43,969 nucleotides of DNA, from IMG/VR virus record IMGVR_UViG_3300044695_003744, positions 1 to 43,969 of that record. The stretch is one strand, 5' to 3'. A model generated the notes under the pieces. That model did not search any database. It saw nothing but the letters and a program-made list of their open reading frames with translations, and was not told the origin of the DNA. Positions 25,969 through 33,336 of this stretch are shown piece by piece. The stretch's first letter is position 1. Each line of letters begins with the position of its first letter. Position numbers and translations under genes: made by a program. The stretch is from a virus.

Positions 25969-26802
25969 TCAACCTATGAGATCAAGTGGTGGTAATTCGT
26001 ATTCATCCTTAAGTTGTTGTTCCAACTTTTCTATTTCTGCAACTCCATCATCATAGATTTGTCTTCCATTCAATTGAACTCCACCTGGAAGTAAAACTCC
26101 ATTGAATTTAATCATATTCTGTCCCCACTGCTTTTTGATGAGAGCAGTAAGGTATTTTTTTAACCACCAATCATTATAAAGTTTTGGAGTATCTGATGGG
26201 TCTACAATTCGATAACAATCAATAATTACATATTCATTTTCACCAACTTGCTGCCAGTCTATATCTAAGTATAATTTATGATTTAATTTGTTAAAACGAA
26301 TTTGTGCATTAGGATTTAAAAGAAAATCCAAATCTTCAAGATATCTTTTAACCATCGCATAATTAAGGAGGTCTAATGCACCATAATAATAAACATCATT
26401 TAAAAATATCTGATATTTAATATTGAAAAGTCCATCAGAGATGGTACTAGAATTTATTTTTAAGATATTATTTACACCAATAATTGAATCCGGTAATGGA
26501 AGATAGTTAACTCCCTCTACATAATTGAGAGAAGTTAAACCAACTCCAACAACATCTGAAGAAGATGTTGTTGCGGAACCTACTGGTCCTGGTTGAGCTA
26601 ATGTTGCTTTAGTTGCAGGAGTAAGTTTGTGTTTTAAAAATACACGATCAATACCATCATAATGTCTTTCATGAAAATATTGAATAGCATCATCTACTAA
26701 ATTATCGATTTGATCATCATCAACATTTATCTCTAATACAGGTTTACCCAATTGACGAAGACAATATTCGATTAATTCCTTTCTGTTATTAGGTGATGCC
26801 AT
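25969..26802 (-). CDS. 13: gp13-like neck protein
   Basis: A protein of 277 residues (T4 gp13: 309). It begins MASPNNRKELIEYCLRQLGKP and has the family core VDDDQIDNLVDDAIQYFHERHYDG, FNIKYQIFLNDVYYYGALDLLNYAM, and PSDTPKLYNDWWLKKYLTALIKKQWGQNMIKF. It sits between portal and gp14 in the finished head-tail junction. It ends immediately before the gp14 start and is preceded by a late promoter in the divergent control region shared with hldD. Confidence 0.94.
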   Translation of the reverse strand: MASPNNRKELIEYCLRQLGKPVLEINVDDDQIDNLVDDAIQYFHERHYDGIDRVFLKHKLTPATKATLAQPGPVGSATTSSSDVVGVGLTSLNYVEGVNYLPLPDSIIGVNNILKINSSTISDGLFNIKYQIFLNDVYYYGALDLLNYAMVKRYLEDLDFLLNPNAQIRFNKLNHKLYLDIDWQQVGENEYVIIDCYRIVDPSDTPKLYNDWWLKKYLTALIKKQWGQNMIKFNGVLLPGGVQLNGRQIYDDGVAEIEKLEQQLKDEYELPPLDLIG

Positions 26803-26829
26803 ACATATTAAATGATTTTATAATGGTAA

Positions 26830-26837: not shown

Positions 26838-26845
26838 TATTTATC
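26838..26845 (-). promoter_or_regulatory. T4-type late promoter for gp13
   Basis: GATAAATA on the minus strand, 35 bases before the gp13 ATG at 26802. Confidence 0.5.
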
Positions 26846-26873: not shown

Positions 26874-27668
26874 ATGATTATATTAACAGGATCACAAGGT
26901 TTCATTGGAAAAAACTTTCTTTCCACGATTAAAGAGCCTATAATAGAAGTGGAAAAGGGTAATGCTTTTCGTTTTATATCTGGGTTTAATAAATGGGATC
27001 AAGTATCCTTAATTTTGCATCAAGGAGCAATATCTTCAACGACTGAGAGAAACATTCAAACGTTACATCACAATAATGTTGTCTTTTCTTTGTTTCTTTT
27101 TGAAAAAGCAATAGAGCATGGAATATCAGTAAAATATGCTTCATCAGCATCAGTATATGGAAATCAAACAAAAAAATCAAAAGTCATAAATCCACTAAAT
27201 TATTATGCAATAACTAAACTTCAAATTGATTATTTTGTCCAAGATAATATAGAAAAATTTTCGAGTATTCAGGGATTTAGGTACTTTAATGTTTATGGGC
27301 AAGGTGAAGATCATAAAGGTGATCAAGCAAGTCCAATCTCTAAATTCACAAAACAAATTCGTGAATCAGGAAAATTGAACCTCTTCAGAGGATCAGACAA
27401 ATTTTTAAGAGACTTCATCTGTGTTGAAGATGTTGTTGATGTTGTTTTAAATAATAGCCATCCATCAGGAATCTATGATTTGGGAACAGGAAACCCTATT
27501 AGTTTTCAAGAAGTTGCAGAATTAGTCTCAGAAAAAGAAAAAGGGGAAGTCGAATATATCGACTTCCCCGAACATCTTAAAGGTAAATATCAAGATTATA
27601 CTTGTGCTGACATGAAATGGATTGGTGACTATAAGTTTAAAACAGTTAGAGAGTATCTCCTTCAATAA
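26874..27668 (+). CDS. hldD: ADP-L-glycero-D-manno-heptose 6-epimerase-like protein (HldD)
   Basis: A short-chain dehydrogenase/epimerase of 264 residues (E. coli HldD: 310). The NAD(P)-binding motif is GSQGFIG at 6-12; the catalytic set is S91 and Y111-x3-K115. HldD-specific segments are unmistakable: HQGAISSTTERN, YASSASVYGN, GFRYFNVYGQGEDHKGDQAS, LFRGSDKFLRDF, and FPEHLKGKYQDYTCADM. It would convert ADP-D-glycero- to ADP-L-glycero-manno-heptose. It is the only plus-strand gene in the window and converges on the minus-strand glycan genes, overlapping the cupin gene tail-to-tail by 23 bases. There is no obvious Shine-Dalgarno sequence. Confidence 0.93.
   Translation: MIILTGSQGFIGKNFLSTIKEPIIEVEKGNAFRFISGFNKWDQVSLILHQGAISSTTERNIQTLHHNNVVFSLFLFEKAIEHGISVKYASSASVYGNQTKKSKVINPLNYYAITKLQIDYFVQDNIEKFSSIQGFRYFNVYGQGEDHKGDQASPISKFTKQIRESGKLNLFRGSDKFLRDFICVEDVVDVVLNNSHPSGIYDLGTGNPISFQEVAELVSEKEKGEVEYIDFPEHLKGKYQDYTCADMKWIGDYKFKTVREYLLQ
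27531..27569 (-). terminator. Strong minus-strand terminator located inside hldD
   Basis: GGGGAAGTCGA (27543-27553) and TCGACTTCCCC (27559-27569) form a perfect 11-bp stem with a 5-base loop. On the minus strand it is followed by TTTTTCTTTTTC. It lies 77 bases beyond the cupin stop codon and would end the glycan-gene transcript. There is no U-tract on the plus-strand side, so hldD mRNA should read through. Confidence 0.88.
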
Positions 27669-28011
27669 TACGAATACTATCACTATCGAAATGTTGAGTT
27701 GAGAATTCAAACAACTCAGTATCTTCTAAGGCATACATTCTATGTCTTAATCCAACAGGAACATGAAAGTTTTGACCCTTTTTAAGGGTCCTTTTTTGTG
27801 CCAAATTAATGTCATCATCATACCCATAAAAAAGAATCAACATTCCAGACTGCACATAGAATGTCTCATCTTTTATGTTGTGATAATGCCAAGAACACTT
27901 TTTCCCTTTTACAAAATATAAAAGTTTTCCACAATATTGTTCATTGTTTACAATCCATTTTTCAAATCCCCATCCTTTGGGGACAAATTTAATTGAAGAA
28001 GTCATCTGCAT
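27646..28011 (-). CDS. Single-domain cupin protein of the glycan cassette
   Basis: A protein of 121 residues with cupin metal-binding signature WHYHNIKDETFYV (two His, Glu) followed by GQNFHVPVGLRHRM with a further His. Such small cupins act as sugar-phosphate isomerases or epimerases, or have structural metal sites. Similar proteins occur in phage and capsule sugar clusters. No GmhA-type sedoheptulose-7-phosphate isomerase is visible here, so an isomerase role is tempting but unproven. It overlaps the HAD gene by 23 bases. The plus-strand terminator of hldD is encoded within it (RTLKKGQ region). Confidence 0.8.
   Translation of the reverse strand: MQMTSSIKFVPKGWGFEKWIVNNEQYCGKLLYFVKGKKCSWHYHNIKDETFYVQSGMLILFYGYDDDINLAQKRTLKKGQNFHVPVGLRHRMYALEDTELFEFSTQHFDSDSIRIIEGDTL
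27774..27797 (+). terminator. Plus-strand terminator for hldD, located inside the cupin gene
   Basis: GACCCTT-TTT-AAGGGTC followed by CTTTTTTG on the plus strand. A perfect 7-bp stem plus U-tract, 106 bases after the hldD stop codon, and within the antisense coding sequence of the cupin. Confidence 0.85.
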
Positions 28012-28318
28012 TCACCGCTTTGTCATCAATGTACATATCCCCACTTGGTTTGCCCATGATTAATTCATGATACTTGCATCCCCAATCATCCAATTGTGTT
28101 TTTGTTAGATTATAAAAATCCGCATAAGCTAGATTTGAATTATCAAGATGTCTTCCCATACCACGAGCAGTAAAGTACTTGATAATATGTCCTTCCTCGT
28201 AAAGACGATTGATGGTATCAATACGGTCTAACTTTGGAATACTATTATGATAGTAACCATCTTCTCTGCAAATGGGTTTATCACAAATTGTTCCGTCGAT
28301 ATCAATTACATAATTCAT
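27989..28318 (-). CDS. Small HAD-superfamily phosphatase
   Basis: A protein of 109 residues. Motif I is DIDGTIC (D6, D8), motif II the Thr in YFTARG, and motifs III/IV are GKPSGDMYIDDKAVN. The compact fold and sequence resemble small phosphatases in capsule and LPS loci. In an ADP-heptose pathway a GmhB-type phosphatase must remove the 7-phosphate from heptose-1,7-bisphosphate. This protein could fill that step, though it is shorter than GmhB and not clearly of that family. Start overlaps the kinase stop by 17 bases. Confidence 0.85.
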   Translation of the reverse strand: MNYVIDIDGTICDKPICREDGYYHNSIPKLDRIDTINRLYEEGHIIKYFTARGMGRHLDNSNLAYADFYNLTKTQLDDWGCKYHELIMGKPSGDMYIDDKAVNADDFFN

Positions 28319-31109: not shown

Positions 31110-32192
31110 TCAATTTTTAATGTCGTTTAATTCCAGAATTTGATCAATTGTTTTTTTCTTGGTTGGTTTTGGTTTTTGGAATCCAGGCATTACACTTGGA
31201 TTTATCGGAAGATTATTTTGACTTGTTCCATTTTTTGATACACCTGATAAATTCAATGTATCATTATTGACCTTACTTACGCCAATTTTATCTTTAATTG
31301 ATTTGGAAATTTCTTTTATTCTTTCATTACTTAAAATCATCAAATCTTCATTATTTCTATCATATTGATCTTCAAAACTTATTCTTATTGGGCTATATTT
31401 CCTTCTATTTTTTCCATTATCTACGATATGGAAATTTTTATTATTTGGATAGGAAATATTTTCAGGATAAGTTGAACCTATAACTACAGTACTTGGTTTG
31501 TTCAATGCATATGCAATGTGTTGACCCATGCTGTCACATCCCAGAAAATAGTCGGCAGCATTAATTATACCACCCCATTGTGTAATTGGTACATTCTGAG
31601 GACAAGCGACTCCAAGTTTATCCCAATCTGGAATTGGAATTTGTGTCATTAAGATGACGCCATAATTTTTCTTCAATTCATCAATAACTTTGTATATATC
31701 CGAAAGTTCAAAACTTCTACCTGTGACATCATAAGTAAATTTTCCTTCAACTTTTGCAGAACTGCCAAAAGGTTGAAAAACTACAATTTTATCTTTTTTT
31801 AGAACTTCTCTTACTTCTTCTACTAGATTATATCCGAATATTTGTTCTTGTTTGTTTAATTCTAAATTAATTTTTTTAGTATCTGGTATATGATTCAGTT
31901 CATTGATTAATATATCAAATGCTTGAATCAAATTACACTCTTGAGTGAAATATGCATTGAGTCTATAGGGTTCTGGACTTACAATTTCCTTATCAAGTAA
32001 AAGCGACTCAAATAAATTTTTATGATTAATAGGATAAACTTTATCCCTTAGTACTTTACTACAGGAATAAAATTCTCCCCATGATTCGGCAACGACTATA
32101 AAATCGTCATGTCTTTTGGCATATTCTTCCAAAGCGGGTATGGAACAAAGGACCCTACCCGCACCACCATTGATGAAAAATGCTTTATTCAT
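31110..32192 (-). CDS. GT9-like (heptosyltransferase-type) glycosyltransferase
   Basis: A protein of 360 residues with the two-domain GT-B pattern of family 9. It begins MNKAFFINGGAGRVLCSIPALEEY. The C-terminal donor domain contains QWGGIINAADYFLGCDSMGQHIAYALNKPSTVVIGSTYPE, the D-[ST]-x-x-x-H-x-A-x-[AS] type signature of ADP-heptose users. Residues after about 300 form a low-complexity Asn/Ser/Pro/Lys tail not typical of LPS heptosyltransferases. Together with HldD and the split HldE it makes ADP-heptose the best-supported donor. The acceptor is unknown: LPS, fibre protein or other. It starts 43 bases after a late promoter and has an AGGTGG ribosome site. Confidence 0.88.
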   Translation of the reverse strand: MNKAFFINGGAGRVLCSIPALEEYAKRHDDFIVVAESWGEFYSCSKVLRDKVYPINHKNLFESLLLDKEIVSPEPYRLNAYFTQECNLIQAFDILINELNHIPDTKKINLELNKQEQIFGYNLVEEVREVLKKDKIVVFQPFGSSAKVEGKFTYDVTGRSFELSDIYKVIDELKKNYGVILMTQIPIPDWDKLGVACPQNVPITQWGGIINAADYFLGCDSMGQHIAYALNKPSTVVIGSTYPENISYPNNKNFHIVDNGKNRRKYSPIRISFEDQYDRNNEDLMILSNERIKEISKSIKDKIGVSKVNNDTLNLSGVSKNGTSQNNLPINPSVMPGFQKPKPTKKKTIDQILELNDIKN

Positions 32193-32234: not shown

Positions 32235-32242
32235 TATTTATT
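32235..32242 (-). promoter_or_regulatory. T4-type late promoter for the glycan operon
   Basis: AATAAATA on the minus strand in the 79-base gap after the Cys-rich gene, 43 bases before the glycosyltransferase ATG. It would place the whole minus-strand glycan operon under gp55 control. Confidence 0.5.
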
Positions 32243-32271: not shown

Positions 32272-33336
32272 TTATTTAAAGCAAATACAAACCAATCCCA
32301 TTTTACCAGAACAATCCCCATACATACCAACCGCACCACCAAAAGCACTTGAAGGCCAACCACCCGCACTAGGAACTCTTAATCTGCCACAACATGCTTG
32401 GTTAGCCGAACCGCAACAGATACCATCATAGAAAACTGTACACTGAGACTCGGAAAGGAATCCAAAAACTGGTGGGTGACAGTAACAAGCCGCATTATTA
32501 TTACCGCAACTGCATAGAGATGAGAACATTCCTTTTATTCCATATATCGAGCCAACAGGAGATGATCCATAATAATTTGCTCCAGGGGTGAATGGATGAA
32601 TGCAGCATACGCCAACACCAGTTGCTGACCAACATCCAAAACTACCTCCCCCACAAACAGCGTATCCACATCCTTGACTACATTTTGATCCAAAATAACA
32701 AGCAGATACAGCATATCTACCATTACATACCATCCACTTACCCAGTTCCCCAATACCACCATCTACACAGAAATTGCATAATCCCGGTCCTTGAACGAAG
32801 GATTTATCTCCGTCTGGTCTATGGCAACCATATGTACAGTATGCACAAATTCTTGGAGCACATCCACTATGGATTGTATAAGTTGCTCCAGCTGTTACAG
32901 GAATAATAAGTGATGCATATGCACCAGTTCCACCAAAAGGAGATATAGAACAACACATTCCTCCACTACCAGAACCAGATCCAGCACCCCAAATCTGGAA
33001 TCTTGCACAAGTTACTCCACTAGGAACAGTCCAAGTACAATCCTTACCCTGAGAGAAATATTGATTAACAACACCATCATCCCCACAAACAGTAAATCCA
33101 CCAGTCCATCCGGAACCAGCTGCTACACAAGACCAAAGACTTGTTTGAGCTGGATTTGCTAGTAATGAAGGTTCTATGCACCGAACCCAACAACTATATT
33201 CAGGAGTAAACAAACTTGCAGAAACCGCAAGAGCAGTAGTTTGGGGTCCTTTTACAGCTATGCAAGCGCTCTTTTCGGAAACTTGAGTAGTTAAATAGTC
33301 TTTTGCATTTTCTGCACTGTATCTTAATACATCCAT
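32272..33336 (-). CDS. Cys/Gly-rich probable tail adhesin, paralogue 1
   Basis: A protein of 354 residues with about 35 Cys (10 percent) and very high Gly and Ser. After a distinct N-terminus of about 70 residues comes a module shared with the gene at 34044-35159: GSGWT.GF.VC, CTWTVP.G.TCARFQIWGAG, SPFGG.GAYAS.I.PVTAG. A Cys/Gly-rich body follows, and both end in the same type of tail (GKMGLVCICFK). Glycine-rich bodies of this kind recall polyglycine-helix adhesins at the tips of T-even-like fibres, and similar proteins occur in cyanophages. A virion receptor-binding role is inferred; disulphides or metal sites are possible. Confidence 0.8.
   Translation of the reverse strand: MDVLRYSAENAKDYLTTQVSEKSACIAVKGPQTTALAVSASLFTPEYSCWVRCIEPSLLANPAQTSLWSCVAAGSGWTGGFTVCGDDGVVNQYFSQGKDCTWTVPSGVTCARFQIWGAGSGSGSGGMCCSISPFGGTGAYASLIIPVTAGATYTIHSGCAPRICAYCTYGCHRPDGDKSFVQGPGLCNFCVDGGIGELGKWMVCNGRYAVSACYFGSKCSQGCGYAVCGGGSFGCWSATGVGVCCIHPFTPGANYYGSSPVGSIYGIKGMFSSLCSCGNNNAACYCHPPVFGFLSESQCTVFYDGICCGSANQACCGRLRVPSAGGWPSSAFGGAVGMYGDCSGKMGLVCICFK

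Follow-up and report, generated by a model that had tools for sequence, protein, structure and literature searches.

The gene hldD and the sugar operon that faces it in a T4-like cyanophage genome appear to end at two intrinsic terminators, each of which lies inside the opposing gene. Judging from the DNA sequence, we estimate a probability of about 80% that these elements terminate transcription in vivo and insulate the two transcription units from each other. Convergent terminators are already known, and the embedding of each one inside the opposing gene would be a new variant. Because the same gene is convergent with its neighbor in some phages and co-directional with it in others, this junction offers a natural experiment.

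Results

Organization of the hldD-cupin junction

The DNA analyzed here, referred to as the window, comprises positions 1-43,969 of virus record IMGVR_UViG_3300044695_003744 (43,969 bases). Its gene order and its relatives are those of T4-like cyanophages. The window DNA has 65-70% matches to Prochlorococcus phage P-SSM2, Synechococcus phages S-CAM1 and S-CAM3, and others, and shares with these cyanophages a cluster of hldD, cupin, kinase and carbamoyltransferase genes. From these relatives, the host is expected to be a cyanobacterium. Nearly all of the window's genes are on the minus strand, and the sole clear plus-strand gene is hldD, which encodes an HldD-like nucleotide-sugar epimerase (26874-27668; PHROG 540, Pfam Epimerase, PDB 1eq2). 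It converges on a cupin gene (27646-28011, minus strand; Pfam Cupin_2, PHROG 7851), the final gene of the sugar operon. The open reading frames agree with an earlier note on this DNA that the two coding sequences overlap by 23 nt (27646-27668). Elsewhere in this region, the PHROG name phosphoheptose isomerase for the minus-strand gene at 27989-28318 is doubtful; its protein starts with MNYVIDIDGTICDKP, a DxDGT motif of the kind seen in HAD-type phosphatases. The minus-strand gene at 32272-33336, which adjoins the sugar operon, encodes a 354-aa protein with unusually abundant Cys and Gly.

The predicted terminator of the sugar operon is inside hldD. Its stem-loop (27569-27543, minus strand) has 11 perfect pairs, 7 of them GC, and a loop of 5, and is followed by the U-tract TTTTTCTTTT (27533-27542, minus strand), which corresponds to Lys/Glu codons of hldD. 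With a dG of -20.2, it is the most stable hairpin-plus-U-tract in the whole 44-kb window (folding z = -6.1; none of 200 shuffles was equally good). In the near-identical locus L001, 100 codon shuffles of hldD never produced its equal. The predicted terminator of hldD is inside the cupin gene. Its stem-loop (27774-27790, plus strand) has 7 pairs, 4 of them GC, and a loop of 3, followed by C and then TTTTTT (27792-27797, plus strand). Taken alone this hairpin is modest (dG -8.3, z = -1.8; 10 of 200 shuffles equally good; codon-shuffle p = 0.03), and its credibility as a terminator comes mainly from analogous elements in relatives.

Both elements thus have a G+C-rich stem-loop on the transcribed strand and a U-tract directly after the stem on that strand, with none on the other strand. 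The earlier note had described these hairpins, their one-sided U-tracts and the residues encoded opposite them (EKGEVEYIDFPE and KRTLKKGQ); sequence, open reading frames and a terminator scan concur with that description and its coordinates. The note's estimate that the transcripts would overlap by about 250 bases is also close, as the predicted ends give about 255-260 nt. A single bidirectional hairpin shared by both units is ruled out in the window: the hairpins are distinct, lie about 205 nt from each other and have U-tracts on one side only. In four other loci (L040, L120, L131 and L139), a cupin hairpin (AGATGAGACC...GGTCTCATCT) is flanked by T-rich stretches on each strand and could act both ways.

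Candidate promoters around hldD

A candidate sigma70-like promoter lies upstream of hldD (26796-26824, plus strand), with 10 of 12 consensus bases, a weak -35 and TATAAT at 26819-26824. On the minus strand, the motif ATAAATA at 26838-26844 is the candidate core of a T4-type late promoter for the head-tail adaptor gene (25969-26802), and another copy (32235-32241) precedes the sugar operon, 43 nt upstream of the gene at 31110-32192. In the window overall, ATAAATA is no more common than chance (18 occurrences compared to 18.7 expected). A copy lies 13-43 nt upstream of each of ten genes, among them the head-tail adaptor gene and the gene that opens the sugar operon; this placement fits T4-type late promoters. 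These minus-strand copies are at 1559, 10396, 13126, 16078, 19245, 26838, 32235, 34024, 35799 and 41703.

Similar arrangements recur in relatives with a convergent hldD. Sigma70-like promoters were found upstream of hldD in 57 of 112 such loci (13.3 expected), and minus-strand ATAAATA motifs upstream of hldD in 71 of the 112 (4.8 expected). Upstream of co-directional hldD there was no such enrichment (4/27 for sigma70-like promoters and 1/27 for ATAAATA). Because both the promoter on the hldD side and the motif of its neighbor are enriched, hldD appears to be a separate unit that has a host-type sigma70-like promoter and sits between units that are putatively late.

Predicted terminators in convergent and co-directional relatives

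We collected loci from phage records and by querying IMG/VR with HldD and cupin. This gave 198 loci that differ in the last 330 nt of hldD, and 153 once those more than 95% alike were removed: 117 convergent, 29 co-directional and 7 undecided. We scored minus-strand terminators in the last 330 nt of hldD (dG <= -10 kcal/mol and at least 6 T in 8) and took the null expectation from codon shuffles that hold the protein fixed.

Such a terminator was present in 82 of the 117 convergent loci, compared to 8.4 expected, and at dG <= -14 in 67 loci, compared to 1.4 expected. The other strand of the same DNA, used as a control, had 4 (1.4 expected) at dG <= -10 and 0 (0.15 expected) at dG <= -14. None of the 29 co-directional loci had a minus-strand terminator in the last 330 nt of hldD at dG <= -10 (Fisher p = 4e-13 for the contrast with convergent loci, ignoring shared ancestry). 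The element is not universal at convergent junctions, and a rule that every convergent locus has it is ruled out: at the threshold used, 35 of 117 (about 30%, P-SSM2 among them) have no hldD element, and no clear substitute was found nearby. In the P-SSM2 clade (L026, L027, L082, L083 and L088), hldD and cupin converge, and neither hldD nor the DNA past it has a canonical minus-strand terminator.

Absence of compensatory changes that preserve the stems had been named in the earlier note as grounds for abandoning the idea, and such changes were found. Within the window's clade, a C-G pair is T-A in L005; in the largest group, one stem pair has C-G, T-A and A-T variants; and elsewhere paired columns switch from G-C to C-G. 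Together with the excess over codon shuffles, these changes argue for selection on the stem of the minus-strand element. Across clades, the center of the hairpin moves by several nucleotides, and its downstream edge stays at the same T-tract.

The T-tract encodes K-K-E or E-K-E-K in hldD, and the residue after the lysine varies with gene orientation. It is Glu in 67 of 114 convergent HldD proteins, whereas the 27 co-directional proteins have Tyr (24) or Leu (3) and never Glu (Fisher p = 2e-9, ignoring shared ancestry). Glu in place of Tyr or Leu gives a longer U-tract. The constraint imposed by the terminator has apparently changed an amino acid of the HldD enzyme. Some clades with the terminator retain Tyr or Phe and build the T-tract otherwise, for example as ATA AAA AAA TAT, so Glu is one solution among several.

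Plus-strand terminators were found inside the opposing gene, which is the cupin gene or an oxygenase gene inserted between, in 23 of 64 convergent loci (0.9 expected). The window's own stem is not conserved in place; the analogous elements are elsewhere in the opposing gene, starting about 26, 51, 67-73, 80, 106, 116-122 or 160-171 nt past the hldD stop codon, depending on the clade. A single conserved place is thus ruled out, and the varied positions indicate turnover of the plus-strand element. Within cupin genes, antisense terminators were seen 20 times among 79 convergent cases and 7 times among 84 co-directional ones. These 7 are only apparent exceptions, since in each the operon meets a facing hldD after another 0.6-1.2 kb. 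Taken together, codon shuffles and co-directional controls tie both elements to a particular strand and gene orientation, and the data from relatives strongly favor the view that each kind of element is a terminator subject to selection.

Ancestry of the loci

Relatedness among the loci inflates these counts. On trees of HldD built without the terminator columns, we counted 6 to 9 changes of gene layout and 11 to 13 changes of terminator state. Well-supported branches hold only 2-3 independent contrasts; the terminator differences there run in the expected direction, and with so few contrasts an independent-pairs sign test has no power. In one tree, three co-directional loci that have no terminator (L109, L021 and L115) are nested in the terminator-bearing clade of the window, and in a second tree they are just outside it; the nesting therefore depends on model and sampling. 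A home-made model of correlated evolution beats the independent model, with a likelihood ratio of 26.1 (nominal p = 3e-5) for the terminator and 21.2 for the Glu residue, both obtained with a rough optimizer and with some rates at their bounds.

Discussion

Proposed two-way insulation at a convergent junction

We propose that the two terminators insulate hldD and the sugar operon in both directions. hldD, a plus-strand unit with its own sigma70-like promoter, would sit between two late minus-strand units, and it would collide head-on with the sugar operon, with zero intergenic space between them. RNA polymerase that continues past the cupin gene would transcribe about 125-135 nt of antisense hldD before halting, and RNA polymerase that continues past hldD would halt about 125 nt beyond its stop codon, inside antisense cupin. 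Antisense transcription would then be limited to the final ~130 nt of each gene, and the late operon would be kept from crossing hldD and its promoter. Rho is absent from cyanobacteria (PMC13289151). In the expected cyanobacterial hosts, therefore, an intrinsic hairpin would be the remaining canonical stop for antisense transcription that is not translated. In Synechococcus elongatus, canonical terminators account for a minority of transcript ends and operons (PMC13289151).

The earlier note had suggested that the complementary 3' ends could form duplex RNA and adjust the ratio of the two arms. Because the place of the plus-strand terminator varies by clade, no fixed overlap is conserved, and the shifting terminator lends this idea no support. 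Insulation alone most likely accounts for the pattern, with no need for regulation by duplex RNA. We think it quite unlikely that the locus is a noncontiguous operon or excludon. In such an arrangement, minus-strand transcripts would cross hldD and enter the neck genes, and the overlapping RNAs would be under mutual regulation, perhaps by way of RNase III. An hldD inverted amid minus-strand genes does have the geometry of noncontiguous operons (PMC7154746), and some clades have no terminator. However, the length of the overlap is not conserved, the minus-strand terminator is the strongest in the window, and a candidate late promoter of its own precedes the neck gene.

The hairpins might also arise from the protein sequence itself, if a K-G...F-P-E motif at low G+C makes a hairpin beside a lysine-rich A-tract. 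The motif is old, as the corresponding stretch of E. coli HldD reads KKGQIEYIPFP, and the amino acids by themselves lift the expectation to 8.4 of 117 loci. We nonetheless regard such a coincidence as highly improbable: 82 loci have the element, against an expectation that already fixes the protein sequence; co-directional relatives whose residues are almost the same have no such element; and the stems have compensatory changes. Codon shuffles and the co-directional control rule out chance or coding constraint as the source. Alternatively, the elements could act mainly as 3'-end stabilizers or RNA-processing sites. Stable 3' hairpins shield mRNA against exonucleases, and sequence cannot tell this role from termination. 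A constant U-tract that abuts the stem, on the useful strand only, is a hallmark of intrinsic termination and would be needless for protection, and we consider a primary role in stabilization or processing unlikely.

Comparison with known terminators and overlapping transcripts

The arrangement at the hldD junction resembles several known systems. Like the convergent-pair and bidirectional intrinsic terminators described with TransTermHP (PMC1852404) and in Bacillus cereus (PMC5381666), it has hairpins with U-tracts at a tail-to-tail junction, compensatory stem changes and a stronger need for terminators where genes converge. Those terminators are treated as lying between genes, often with one hairpin serving both strands, whereas here there are two one-sided elements, each wholly within the opposing coding sequence. 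Excludons, noncontiguous operons and overlapping 3' ends (PMC7154746) similarly involve overlapping convergent transcripts and a gene inverted within an opposite run. In those systems, transcripts overlap when terminators are absent or read through, and a regulatory role has been proposed for the overlap, whereas here defined terminators would limit the predicted overlap. In Rickettsia prowazekii, convergent transcripts can likewise extend into the gene that faces them, which yields antisense RNA (PMC3027695). In that organism, which has Rho, the ends are mostly read-through or non-specific, in contrast to the specific embedded hairpins here.

A survey of T4-like cyanophages, the same phage group, predicted hairpin terminators around genes and accepted only those located between genes or no more than 10 bp from the end of an open reading frame (PMC3037559). 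Embedded terminators were excluded by this placement rule, which may explain why they went unreported. Broad searches of the open-access literature did not find this arrangement described, which is weak evidence of novelty.

Embedded terminators might occur at other junctions as well. At 16 other tight convergent junctions in seven complete cyanophages we found 5 embedded terminators compared to 1.0 expected, using home-made gene calls that include doubtful small open reading frames; this is weakly suggestive of a genome-wide pattern. Among them, the convergent junction between the genes for single-strand-binding protein and baseplate wedge has terminators inside the opposing gene in S-CAM3 (1-1601, L478), S-SM2 (1168-2763) and S-SSM7 (712-2421).

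Implications

Annotation of terminators usually searches between genes, and compact phage genomes can therefore appear to have no stops at tail-to-tail junctions. The hldD junction lets selection on a coding-embedded terminator be read, down to an amino-acid change, and suggests how a phage of hosts without Rho insulates opposing transcription units. More tentatively, and at somewhat less than even odds, we speculate that in such hosts the need to stop a neighbor's transcription selects on enzyme sequence. Embedded terminators might then be gained, re-registered and lost with gene order, partly through non-synonymous changes such as Tyr to Glu at the U-tract, and might be general at tight convergent junctions. 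Protein differences among relatives should be interpreted with caution, as they can reflect signals on the opposite strand.
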